Of a DNA stretch of 64,000 nucleotides, positions 15,117 through 32,076 are shown piece after piece. This stretch comes from Galactobacter caseinivorans. GTDB taxonomy: Bacteria > Actinomycetota > Actinomycetes > Actinomycetales > Micrococcaceae. Below the pieces are notes generated by a model. The model ran no database searches. It had not been told where the DNA came from and saw only the letters and a list, made by a program, of their open reading frames with translations. The stretch is taken from the NCBI RefSeq assembly GCF_003640665.1, contig NZ_QQXL01000008.1:62001-126000 (forward strand). Reading direction: 5' to 3'. Each line of letters starts with the position of its first letter. Position 1 is the first letter of the stretch. The translations under genes and the position numbers were made by a program.

Positions 15117-15950
15117 TCACCGCAGGAAGCGCGTCAGCTCCGCCTCGTCCCACACCGACGCCGGCAGCGCGTCCGTCAGCAGCCTGCGCGTCAGCCCGGC
15201 GCCCAGCGGCAGCGGTGCGTCGGAGGCCGCAACCACCACATTCCCGCGCCGGCGCCCTTTCAGCATGGCCGGGTCCGCCACCGCGGCCACGTGCGCAAAG
15301 ACGGTGCGCAGCGCCGCCGCCTCCGCGCGAAGATGGGCCAGATCCGGGGCGTCGCCCACGTTCAGCAGGTACACGCCGTCCGGCGCTAAGACCCGCTTGG
15401 CCTCCGCGTGATACTCCGCCGTGGTCAACTCCACGGGCGTGAGCGAACCAGCGAACACGTCGCGGATGATCACGTCCCGCGTCTGCGCGGTCAGCGTCGG
15501 CAGCACCTGGCCGGCGTCCCCGGCGCGCACGCGCAGCAGCGGCGCCGCGGGCAGTCGGAACCACTCGCGCGCCAACACGGTGAGCTTGGCATCCAGCTCC
15601 ACCACCACCTGCCGCGCGTCCGGATGCGTCACGTGTACCCACCGCGCCATGGAGCAGCCGGCGCCGCCCAGGTGCAGCACGCGCAGGCGCTCCGGCGACG
15701 GCCAGCGCTGCGCCAGGATCGCCGCCATCCACCGCATGTACTCAAAGTCCAGCCGTTCGGGATGATCCAGGTCCACATGGGAGGACGGCACGCCGTTCAC
15801 AAACACGATCCACGCATCCGCCGAATACGGGTCGCGTTCCAGCCGCACCGTGCCGGTGTCGGTCTCCCAGGTACCCTCGCGGGGGCGGCGCTGTTCGGTG
15901 CTCGACGCCGCCTGCTCACCCTGGTCTTTGCCGGCCCGTTTGCGTCCCAA
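15117..15950 (-). CDS. Spermidine synthase-like protein (class I methyltransferase fold)
   Basis: A 277-aa soluble protein of the SpeE-like group that is common in Actinobacteria. The N-terminal 30 residues are charged and disordered. The Rossmann core shows VLHLGGAGCSMARWVHV (glycine loop), QVVVELDAKLTVLAREWF (acidic ribose-binding residue), and DVIIRDVFAGSLTPVELTTAEYHAEAKRVLAPDGVYLLNV. No membrane-spanning half is fused. Whether it makes polyamines or methylates another substrate cannot be told from sequence; members often lack confirmed activity. It is transcribed alone. Confidence 0.82.
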   Translation of the reverse strand: MGRKRAGKDQGEQAASSTEQRRPREGTWETDTGTVRLERDPYSADAWIVFVNGVPSSHVDLDHPERLDFEYMRWMAAILAQRWPSPERLRVLHLGGAGCSMARWVHVTHPDARQVVVELDAKLTVLAREWFRLPAAPLLRVRAGDAGQVLPTLTAQTRDVIIRDVFAGSLTPVELTTAEYHAEAKRVLAPDGVYLLNVGDAPDLAHLRAEAAALRTVFAHVAAVADPAMLKGRRRGNVVVAASDAPLPLGAGLTRRLLTDALPASVWDEAELTRFLR

Positions 15951-30270: not shown

Positions 30271-30343
30271 ACCCGACGCCTGCGCGCCCGGCTGGCCCCC
30301 ACGCCGTCGAGCAGCGCCGCCGGAGCACAGCATGAGGGGACAC

Positions 30344-30739
30344 ATGCCACAGCACAGCGCCACCCGCCGCAGGGCCTCCACCGCCGTCTCCGTCGGGGTC
30401 ACCGCGGTGCTCGCGACCACCCTGGCCGGGTGCGCCAACGACGACTCCACGCCGAAGGCGGACTACGCCAAGATTTGCCGCGAGGAGTCCACGCAGTTGC
30501 GCGTGGAGGATGAGAAGTGCAACGGATCCGGCGGGCACGGCCACGGCTACGTCCCGTACTTCCTTCTCCTGGGCGCGGGCCGCACCACCATTCCGGCGGT
30601 CGGGACCAAGACCATGGGCGGCACCACCACCATCCCTGCCGGCAAGAGCTCCACCAGCGTGGACCGGAAGGGCAAGACTTTTTCCGGCACGTCCCGCGGC
30701 GGCTTTGGCGGCTCAGGCAAAGGTGGCTTCGGAGGGTGA
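30344..30739 (+). CDS. Small YgiB-like (DUF1190-type) lipoprotein
   Basis: A 131-aa predicted lipoprotein. ATG at 30344 is preceded by GAGGGG; the signal runs to lipobox LAGC with Cys30. The mature part has two more cysteines (ICREESTQLRVEDEKC), a Gly/His turn followed by YVPYFLLLG, a Thr-rich segment and a C-terminal RGGFGGSGKGGFGG. Escherichia coli YgiB (DUF1190) likewise is a lipoprotein with a Cys pair, a central hydrophobic/Gly stretch, Thr-rich part and terminal RGGFG, and is also encoded just before a YgiC-type ATP-grasp protein. The assignment rests on this layout more than on close identity. Confidence 0.65.
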   Translation: MPQHSATRRRASTAVSVGVTAVLATTLAGCANDDSTPKADYAKICREESTQLRVEDEKCNGSGGHGHGYVPYFLLLGAGRTTIPAVGTKTMGGTTTIPAGKSSTSVDRKGKTFSGTSRGGFGGSGKGGFGG

Positions 30740-32076
30740 AGCGGCTCGAGTTCACGGCTCGCCCGGGTTGGCGGGAGCGCATCAACGCCTCCGGGCTGAT
30801 CTACTCCGAGAGTCACAAGCCAGGCGTTGGCGCGGTGGAGTATTGGAACGACGCCGCGGCGTACGTGTTCACGCTGGCCGAGGTGGAGGCGCTGGAGGCG
30901 CAGACCGAGGAGCTGCACCGCATGTGCCTGGAGGCGGCCGCCTACATGGCCACCGGCGCGCTGGGCACCCTGGGCTTGAGCGAGGGCGGCTTTGAGCTGG
31001 CCAAGCGCTCCTGGCAGGAGTACGACGGCGCAACCGGCGCCCGCGAGCAGGATGTGTACGCGCGCTTTGATCTGGCCTACGCCGGGGACGGCTCCCCGGC
31101 CAAGATGCTGGAGTACAACGGCGACACCCCCACGGGCCTGATCGAGGCCGCCATCACGCAGTGGGATTGGTTGCAGGATCGCACGGCCTCCGGCGAGCTG
31201 GCACGGCTCAGCGCCGGGAAACTCTCCACCGGGTCCGGGGTATGGGACCAGTGGAATGGCATCTACGACGCGCTGATCGCTCGATGGGAGACGCAGCTGG
31301 CGGCTTCGGTCGCGGCTGGAACCGGCACGCGCCTGTTTTATGGCTACTCGGCCCAGGATTCCTCCGGCGAGGACTGGAACACCGTGGCCGTCATGGCGGA
31401 GATGGCGCAGAAGGCCGGCTGGCGCACCACCTCCATCGAGATGGAGCAGCTGGGCTGGGACTTTGGCGCGCACGAATTTGTGGGTCAGCCAGAGAATCCC
31501 ATGTACGCGGACGAGCCCTTCCGGCCCATCCTGGCGGATGGCACGGTGCAGCCGCGGATCCGCAACATCTTTAAGCTTTACCCCTGGGAGGACATCATGT
31601 CCGGGGAGCAGGGGGACCACTTTGGGCAGCTGTTGCTGGACTACCCTGGCGTGATTCCGCACTGGATTGAGCCGCCATGGAAGATGTTCCTCTCCAACAA
31701 GCTGCTGCTCGTGGCCCTCTGGCACCTCTTCCCGAACCATCCCAACCTGCTGCCCGCCTACGCGGACGGCCCGCACGGCATGAGCGACTACGTGATCAAG
31801 CCGGTCTTTGGGCGCGAGGGCGACGGCATCAAGATCGTTCGCGGCGGCACCACGCAGGCCAATGGCGAGGAGTATCGCCGGGCCGGGCGCGGCAACGAGC
31901 GCGTGTTCCAGCAGTACCACGAGCTGCCCAACTTCCCCGGCTCGGCGGGCCCCAATCACCCGGTCCTGGGGAGCTGGGTGGTGAACCAGGAGGCGTTTGG
32001 CGTGGGCATCCGGGAGTCCGACGGTCCCATCACGGACTACTTCTGCCGCTTTGCCCCCAACCTCATCGAACCGTAG
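30736..32076 (+). CDS. Glutathionylspermidine synthase-like ATP-grasp protein (YgiC family)
   Basis: A 446-aa protein of the GSP_synth family: RINASGLIYSESHKPGVGAVEYWNDAAAYVFT at the N-terminus, DVYARFDLAYAGDGSPAKMLEYNGDTPTGLIEAAITQWDW, and the ATP-grasp core (YVIKPVFGREGDGIKIV, LGSWVVNQEAFGVGIRESDGPITDYFCRFAPNLI). It lacks the amidase domain of bifunctional GspSA and is the size of YgiC/YjfC, whose products are unknown peptide-bond-forming reactions. The GTG start overlaps the stop of the YgiB-like lipoprotein gene (GTGA), so the two are coupled. A carboxylate-amine ligase acting on an envelope or polyamine substrate is a reasonable guess only. Confidence 0.88.
   Translation: MKRLEFTARPGWRERINASGLIYSESHKPGVGAVEYWNDAAAYVFTLAEVEALEAQTEELHRMCLEAAAYMATGALGTLGLSEGGFELAKRSWQEYDGATGAREQDVYARFDLAYAGDGSPAKMLEYNGDTPTGLIEAAITQWDWLQDRTASGELARLSAGKLSTGSGVWDQWNGIYDALIARWETQLAASVAAGTGTRLFYGYSAQDSSGEDWNTVAVMAEMAQKAGWRTTSIEMEQLGWDFGAHEFVGQPENPMYADEPFRPILADGTVQPRIRNIFKLYPWEDIMSGEQGDHFGQLLLDYPGVIPHWIEPPWKMFLSNKLLLVALWHLFPNHPNLLPAYADGPHGMSDYVIKPVFGREGDGIKIVRGGTTQANGEEYRRAGRGNERVFQQYHELPNFPGSAGPNHPVLGSWVVNQEAFGVGIRESDGPITDYFCRFAPNLIEP

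Follow-up and report, generated by a model that had tools for sequence, protein, structure and literature searches.

A 64,000-nucleotide stretch of the Galactobacter caseinivorans genome (contig NZ_QQXL01000008.1, positions 62,001 to 126,000; "the window" below) encodes a small lipoprotein and, directly behind it on the same strand, an ATP-grasp ligase. From sequence comparisons, we think it probable that the two are a protein substrate and its enzyme, and that the ligase amidates the C-terminus of the lipoprotein's tail with an amine. A preliminary description of this DNA had reported the pair, with its GTGA overlap, as a YgiB-like lipoprotein and a glutathionylspermidine-synthase-like ligase, and had guessed that the ligase modifies the tail. 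Both genes are where it placed them, and its guess is the reading that we favor, with comparative support for the pairing and for the tail as target; its DUF1190 body for the lipoprotein and its argument from glutathione did not hold up.

The lipoprotein gene (30344-30739, product P0001) and the ligase gene (30736-32076, product P0002) are both on the + strand, and the GTG start of the ligase lies inside the stop of the lipoprotein (GTGA, 30736-30739). We will call a tailed protein that is encoded beside a ligase its partner. The features of the pair are as follows.

30334..30339, + strand: ribosome-binding-like stretch GAGGGG, read in the sequence, 4 nt 5' of the ATG at 30344.
30344..30739, + strand: small lipoprotein of 131 amino acids, the presumed substrate (ATG start; stop codon counted in).
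30422..30433, + strand: predicted lipobox LAGC, residues 27-30, behind a hydrophobic stretch in the sequence; Cys 30 is predicted to be lipidated.
30476..30520, + strand: stretch that runs from C45 through C59, two Cys conserved in the body (in an alignment of 34 partners, C59 is invariant and C45 nearly so).
30695..30709, + strand: RGGFG, residues 118-122, a motif in common with E. coli YgiB and YjfM and with phage partners.
30731..30736, + strand: C-terminal Gly-Gly, residues 130-131, the presumed ligation site, judging from the end residues of 185 partners.
30736..32076, + strand: YgiC/YjfC-type ATP-grasp ligase of 446 amino acids (PF03738, match to 7uk8, fold).

The ligase and its partner co-occur almost perfectly. 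The preliminary description suggested mapping both families across Actinobacteria, and their co-occurrence is conserved. Of 395 family genomes, 121 have the ligase, and a profile search found the partner in 122, including all 121 with the ligase (22 of the 34 rows of the partner profile came from family genomes, so these match by construction, and in this sample and that of the phylum, scoring covered no more than the top 11 or 12 candidates of each genome). The one weak match among the 274 ligase-free genomes (G386, E = 2.7e-4) covers model positions 10-99 and does not reach the tail. Counting by genus is more cautious than Fisher tests on the genomes, which ignore relatedness: 14 of 32 genera have both genes and 18 have neither, with the same 14 genera in both lists. 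Across 396 genomes of the phylum, the ligase exceeded the cut-off in 25, all of which have the partner; one more ligase (in G673) fell below the cut-off. The other 371 genomes of this sample gave three weak matches to the N-terminal half of the partner (G488, G564, and G804). The partner in G617, also from the phylum sample, matches the model just as weakly (positions 3-40); it adjoins a ligase and its tail is visible.

What the partners have in common is the tail. We examined 186 ligase loci (95 genome stretches, 80 named contigs, and 11 stretches of phage records), which overlap, with some genomes in twice. Our tail pattern was a loose one: [RKPSQ]G(G)[FYWLI]G, or any of three listed variants, within the last 60 residues, and two Gly or Ser at the end. 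The open reading frame (ORF) just before the ligase has such a tail at 173 of the 186 loci (161 distinct endings), versus 7 of the 4786 other ORFs of the same loci; on inspection, five of the latter prove to be tailed proteins at a greater distance, and the other two are probably chance hits. Including nine loci that were recognized by eye and two where the tailed gene is further off (upstream in L054, downstream in L154), 184 of the 186 loci have a tailed gene near the ligase. The nine comprise six variant tails (L142, L147, L190, L192, L195, and L196) and three phages whose partner is further off (L108, L111, and L113). To the partner set, which then numbered 185, we added L117 by hand; it is outside the 186 loci, with a ligase that tblastn missed. 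The tails of L117 and L115 lack RGGFG.

The end of the tail is also constrained. With a strict motif ([RK]GG[FY]G) and any ending allowed, 147 ORFs end in GG (125), GS (18), SS (2), AG (1), or GT (1). The 185 partners are mostly actinobacterial; two are from E. coli and about 10 come from phage records. Of these, 182 have Gly at the penultimate position, and they end in Gly (148), Ser (36), or Thr (1). A thinned set of 101 partners gives a penultimate Gly in 98 and a last residue of Gly (75), Ser (25), or Thr (1), versus 35% Gly inside the tail. The last residue of 55 distinct viral tails is Gly (28), Ser (16), Ala (7), or Glu (4), so the rule that the tail always ends in Gly is too strong. 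The distance from motif to C-terminus has a median of 9 residues in 168 distinct tails and of 10 in the 55 viral ones, and the 5-95% range, measured from the first motif, is 7-22 and 8-16, respectively.

The rest of the partner varies. By a rough rule, 110 of the 185 partners have a lipobox, 74 have a transmembrane-like helix, and one has neither. (This rule was loosened, as a strict first version gave no candidate at 54 of 95 loci, many of them with a transmembrane helix; the N-termini are uncertain.) Some of the partners with a transmembrane helix have a cytoplasmic N-terminus. The motif, its distance from the C-terminus, and the small last residue persist, while bodies and anchors vary. This is what we would expect of an enzyme's handle on the C-terminal carboxylate, and it is more than a docking site or an export signal needs.

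In Actinomadura barringtoniae (L164), a second tailed ORF, ending in TSRGGFGGSSSHSSGG, stands beside the usual partner, with its stop 594 nt before the ligase start; it is possibly a second substrate. A Rhodobacter plasmid (L218, 4001-5812) has the reverse order, with the ligase first and then a DUF1190 protein that ends in VTSRGGFGGSATGRSFGG. And in two Micrococcaceae plasmids (L215, 4376-4879; L217, 3501-3998), the tailed partner is annotated as "tRNA-dihydrouridine synthase", for which the sequence gives no reason.

P0001 itself begins with a hydrophobic signal stretch and the lipobox; a short body, which contains Cys 45 and Cys 59, follows, and the protein ends in the tail RGGFGGSGKGGFGG. 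It had been described as rich in Cys, Thr, and Gly; with 24 Gly and 17 Thr among 131 residues it is rich in the latter two, and it has just 3 Cys. The AlphaFold model of P0001 is of low confidence, with a mean predicted local distance difference test score (pLDDT) of 63.4 and residues 112-125 below 50, and the tail is predicted to be disordered. A search with P0001 alone found relatives in 7 of 59 genomes: four of the genus and three others of the family. The phage family phrog_24063, whose function is not known, matches 18 of the 34 aligned partners (best E = 4.1e-11).

The preliminary description took this lipoprotein for a relative of YgiB and of the DUF1190 family (PF06693). The comparisons bear this out for the tail and do not support it for the body. 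DUF1190 does match YgiB and YjfM of E. coli, whose tails read ...TRGGFG...SMGG and ...SRGGYG...HWGG, respectively (the latter in full, STVSRGGYGRSSSARGHWGG). In contrast, a Pfam search with P0001 gave no hit up to E = 10, and the DUF1190 model found nothing at E up to 10 in the whole source genome. Across the 34 actinobacterial partners, DUF1190 touches six at E up to 1, with a best E of 0.018. When the profile of the 34 partners was compared with one built from YgiB, YjfM, and the partners of eight phage-record ligases, 17 columns aligned, and these are the tail (probability 96.9, E = 1.4e-10). With the tails cut off (25 versus 8 sequences), hhalign aligned only the signal region, with a probability of 45. 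We therefore reject P0001 as a member of DUF1190. By these comparisons, the actinobacterial lipoprotein and the DUF1190 proteins share a type of anchor and a tail, with no detectable common body, although there may be a very distant relationship between the bodies.

The ligase is easier to place. P0002 matches PF03738 (GSP_synth), its sole Pfam family, over the entire model (positions 1-371 of 371, E = 2.1e-109, 366.6 bits versus a cut-off of 29.3). Among chains of solved structure, phmmer finds E. coli YgiC (7uk8, E = 4.1e-60) and YjfC (7uk6, E = 5.6e-48) to be nearest, with glutathionylspermidine synthase (GspS) and trypanothione synthetase much weaker (E = 7.4e-6 and 3.6e-15). An AlphaFold2 model of P0002 from 29 aligned sequences (mean pLDDT 87.2, predicted template modeling score 0.89) gives the same ranking with Foldseek: YgiC and YjfC chains are first to third (7uk8, E = 2.1e-31), followed by GspS, including its glutathione-bound form (2io9). 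P0002 belongs to the YgiC/YjfC branch of GSP_synth.

The ATP-grasp residues of GspS are kept. Our comparison covered 18 positions that were selected in the GspS domain of Gss from E. coli. Nine of these (R316, D318, E330, N332, K498, K533, R538, Q568, and R598), which we take to bind ATP, magnesium, and the carboxylate, have identical counterparts in P0002 (R110, D112, E126, N128, K322, K355, R360, Q392, and R426), YgiC, YjfC, and the ligases of eight phage records. D389 and E391 are also identical in P0002 (D208 and E212); S335, S337, and E392 are replaced conservatively by T, T, and D (E392 is D213); and D, P, Y, and R stand in place of T446, L603, K607, and D610. In all, 11 positions are identical, three are conservative, and four differ. 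The acidic pair E391/E392 presumably faces the polyamine. P0002 should be an active enzyme that activates the carboxylate at the end of a peptide, and the four changed positions may mean a different amine pocket. By reading, there is no export signal in the ligase sequence.

The E. coli relatives suggest what the reaction would be. RefSeq names both YgiC and YjfC "peptide--spermidine ligase". A 2023 Biochemistry paper on peptide-spermidine ligase is cited in the covered part of PMC12568646, and YgiC and YjfC are also cited as peptide-spermidine ligases in that of PMC12270671. The preliminary description, which held that the function of the E. coli pair was unsolved, was thus out of date. It had also argued that the ligase must use another substrate because Actinobacteria normally lack glutathione. 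This is beside the point, as YgiC lacks glutathionylspermidine synthase activity (Sui et al. 2012, as cited in the covered part of PMC12506659).

We propose that the ligase would bind RGGFG in the disordered tail, and that the C-terminal carboxylate, usually 7-12 residues past this motif, would enter the ATP-grasp site. Given the kept residues and the homology, the carboxylate would be activated with ATP as an acyl phosphate, which an amine would then attack. For the E. coli enzymes, whose activity is published, the amine would be spermidine; here it would be a polyamine or another cationic amine. Since the ligase has no export signal and the tail should end up outside, the ligase would have to act before export, so ligation would take place in the cytoplasm. 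The overlap of the genes and the substrate-first order fit with this but do not prove it, and the order is reversed in the Rhodobacter plasmid. The modified, charge-reversed C-terminus would then cross the membrane and be kept on its outer side by a lipid anchor here and by a transmembrane helix in other genera. In favor of this proposal we count the adjacency and co-occurrence of the genes, the tail that is common to unlike bodies, with its constrained ending and distance to the C-terminus, the kept ATP-grasp residues, the disordered tail, the annotation of the E. coli enzymes, and a phage cassette that includes a homospermidine synthase (see below).

Several observations weigh against it. 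No modified protein has been seen. The ligase lacks an export signal while 184 of 185 partners look membrane-anchored by our rough rule. Taken by itself, the co-occurrence could also be explained by a complex in which the ligase does not act on the tail. T446, L603, K607, and D610 are changed and S335, S337, and E392 are conservatively replaced, some of which may face the polyamine. Tails do not all end in Gly (36 of 185 partners have Ser, and viral tails also end in Ser, Ala, or Glu). There is no tailed gene at two of the 186 loci (L110, and L118, whose stretch begins at the ligase), nor at 8 of 80 viral loci (counting L282, below). Finally, canonical spermidine synthesis is nearly absent from ligase-positive Actinobacteria.

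We also considered that the ligase might make a small free conjugate, of a peptide or an amino acid with a polyamine, with the lipoprotein as a non-covalent partner, an anchor or sensor that would bind the ligase through its RGGFG tail and so regulate it or bring it to the membrane. The name peptide-spermidine ligase for YgiC and YjfC would suit this idea, as would the tripeptide substrate of their GspS relatives, and a short linear motif that co-occurs with the ligase could well be a docking tail. However, stable docking is topologically awkward if the ligase is cytoplasmic, as it seems to be, and the tail is outside, and a docking motif needs neither a short distance to the C-terminus nor a small last residue. 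We consider this explanation unlikely, although it is the strongest competitor to ligation of the tail.

Somewhat less likely still is a modification of the tail by the ligase at some other position or with a different group, such as by adding amino acids to the C-terminus or by joining a side chain. Extension and crosslinking of peptides have been described for ATP-grasp ligases (covered parts of PMC10979984 and PMC8939145), the last residues vary among Gly, Ser, Ala, and Glu, and spermidine genes are nearly absent from ligase-positive Actinobacteria. But the nearest homologs by sequence and by fold, which are YgiC and YjfC and then GspS, join a C-terminal carboxylate to spermidine. Also, the acidic pair E391/E392, whose polyamine role we assume, is kept as E212/D213.

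It is very improbable that the tail is needed only to export the lipoprotein or show it at the surface, independently of the ligase, and that just a common role in envelope stress links the genes. An envelope-stress context is published for operons with DUF1190 and a GspS-like ATP-grasp (covered part of PMC11237479), and three phage cassettes are near lysis-inhibition genes. But the tail tracks the ligase across unlike bodies and anchors, which a body-specific export role does not predict. Tailed proteins that were common in ligase-free genomes would favor this idea; the profile search found a match in 1 of 274 such genomes of the family.

If the ligase amidates the tail, as we propose, then the puzzle in Actinobacteria is the identity of the amine, not glutathione. 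From the 144 ligase-positive actinobacterial genomes (121 + 25, with two shared), we chose 54 for spread; SpeD is in three of these and the N-terminal domain of SpeE is in none. SpeD was not found in the source genome either. The window does encode a divergent spermidine-synthase-like protein 15 kb from the pair (15117-15950, - strand), which matches NF037959 with 94.0 bits (cut-off 40) and PF01564 with 26.2 bits (cut-off 22.9). At 62 of the 186 loci, a gene for an APC-family permease on the strand of the ligase starts no more than 700 nt downstream of it. Our guess is that this permease could import the amine. Two plasmids have such a gene overlapping or following the ligase (L215, 6170-7654; L217, 5179-6663), and in L217 a potassium-channel gene is next. 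A gene for a DUF350 membrane protein follows the ligase in the same way, starting within the same distance, at 27 of the 186 loci (Tsukamurella, Nocardia, Actinomadura, and others; for instance, L216, 6203-6661).

Phages carry the ligase as well. With tblastn, P0002 as the query found the ligase in 120 phage records and YgiC found it in 136. We examined 12 of these records, one of which (CAKLQH020000026.1) looks like host DNA. Upstream sequence is available for 11 of the 12, and 10 of those 11 have an upstream lipoprotein with a tail that ends in Gly or Ser, two of them without RGGFG (Bacillus phage PJN02 and Pseudomonas phage NoPa). In phage DSS3_VP1 (L110, 1412-2398), a gene that by reading is potassium-channel-like takes the expected place of the lipoprotein before the ligase. 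This rules out that phages always carry both genes. Achromobacter phage Motura (221 kb; L109, 803-3628) encodes a homospermidine synthase, a tailed lipoprotein, and the ligase in a row.

Among 80 ligase loci from IMG/VR, 66 have an ORF with the motif on the strand of the ligase, versus 11 of 1878 control ORFs. One of the 66 (L282) looks like chance, so 65 are credible. The 14 misses include four with variant tails, seen by eye (L228, L263, L271, and L286), three with little or no upstream sequence (L226, L240, and L283), and seven that show no tail. As a query against viral contigs, the alignment of 34 partners was too divergent to be of use. The partner did match in four Arthrobacter phages (Mimi, Racecar, Talia1610, and Atuin). 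In Mimi and Atuin (L201 and L202, both at 2429-2803), it has a full RGGFG tail and a body like those of the actinobacterial partners, and a glycoside hydrolase gene is nearby. Arthrobacter phages were absent from the organism tally of the P0002 ligase search of phage records.

There is a broader, more tentative idea, to which we give slightly less than an even chance. RGGFG, about 7-12 further residues, and a small last residue may be a general and transferable C-terminal tag that marks surface proteins with unlike bodies for amidation with an amine at the cost of ATP, in Actinobacteria, Proteobacteria, and large phages. Phages would carry either the whole cassette or, as in the Arthrobacter phages, the tagged protein alone, borrowing the ligase of the host.

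Around the pair in the window, the genes upstream on the same strand encode an oligopeptide-type ABC ATPase and a protein of the 3-hydroxyisobutyrate dehydrogenase type, and those downstream on the other strand encode two oligopeptide-type permeases and a solute-binding protein. Searches of these five flanking ORFs found no PspA, DUF2491, or DUF350. The sole DUF350 match in the source genome is below the cut-off and on another contig.

Related gene clusters have been described. Ravi et al. 2024 (PMC11237479) reported operons in which a GspS-like ATP-grasp occurs together with DUF350, DUF2491, and a lipoprotein of DUF1190 that they called metal-chelating, and tied polyamines to membrane stress; the parts of that paper that were covered do not propose the lipoprotein as a substrate of the ligase. 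We noticed no earlier proposal of a neighboring lipoprotein as the substrate in the literature searched, whose coverage did not extend to Pederick 2023 and Iyer 2009. In the covered part of PMC2731931, ygiB and ygiC appear within the tolC operon in a table for BaeR, with a value for tolC only. If our proposal is correct, then the YgiC/YjfC ligases, whose peptide activity is in print, gain a likely natural protein substrate, the C-terminus of the neighboring lipoprotein. It would also mean that bacteria amidate protein C-termini with an amine, in a process that is tied to the envelope and that phages have taken up.

Eukaryotes offer an analogy only: in SUMO-spermidine and ubiquitin-spermidine conjugates, the carboxylate of a protein's C-terminal Gly-Gly is likewise joined to spermidine (covered part of PMC12270671), but these conjugates are made by E1/E2 enzymes and the proteins are unrelated. 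The GspS domain of E. coli Gss and trypanothione synthetase share the fold of P0002 (2io8, 2io9, 2vps) and its nine ATP-grasp residues. Unlike them, P0002 lacks an amidase domain, is about 18% identical in fold alignments, and does not keep 4 of the 18 positions, and its substrate is presumably a protein tail instead of the glutathione of GspS. The polyamine operons of PMC11237479, with PspA, DUF350, and DUF2491, differ in that there is no DUF350 or PspA in the gene run of the window pair. The E. coli YjfM-YjfC pair likewise has a lipoprotein encoded directly 5' of the ligase, with the YjfM tail SRGGYG...GG. Its neighbors are YjfI, the PspA-like YjfJ, YjfK, and the DUF350 protein YjfL, whereas the five searched ORFs that flank the window pair lack PspA, DUF2491, and DUF350. 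E. coli YgiB-YgiC has the same gene order, a lipoprotein anchor, the YgiB tail TRGGFG...GG, and a ligase of the same branch (YgiC is 38% identical to P0002 in our alignment, with the nine ATP-grasp residues in common). However, the body of P0001 is unlike that of YgiB and does not match DUF1190, the flanking ORFs searched are transporter and dehydrogenase genes instead of tolC, and the host lacks SpeD. Compared with YgiB-YgiC, then, the window pair is the same ligase and tail with a different body and a different or missing polyamine supply.

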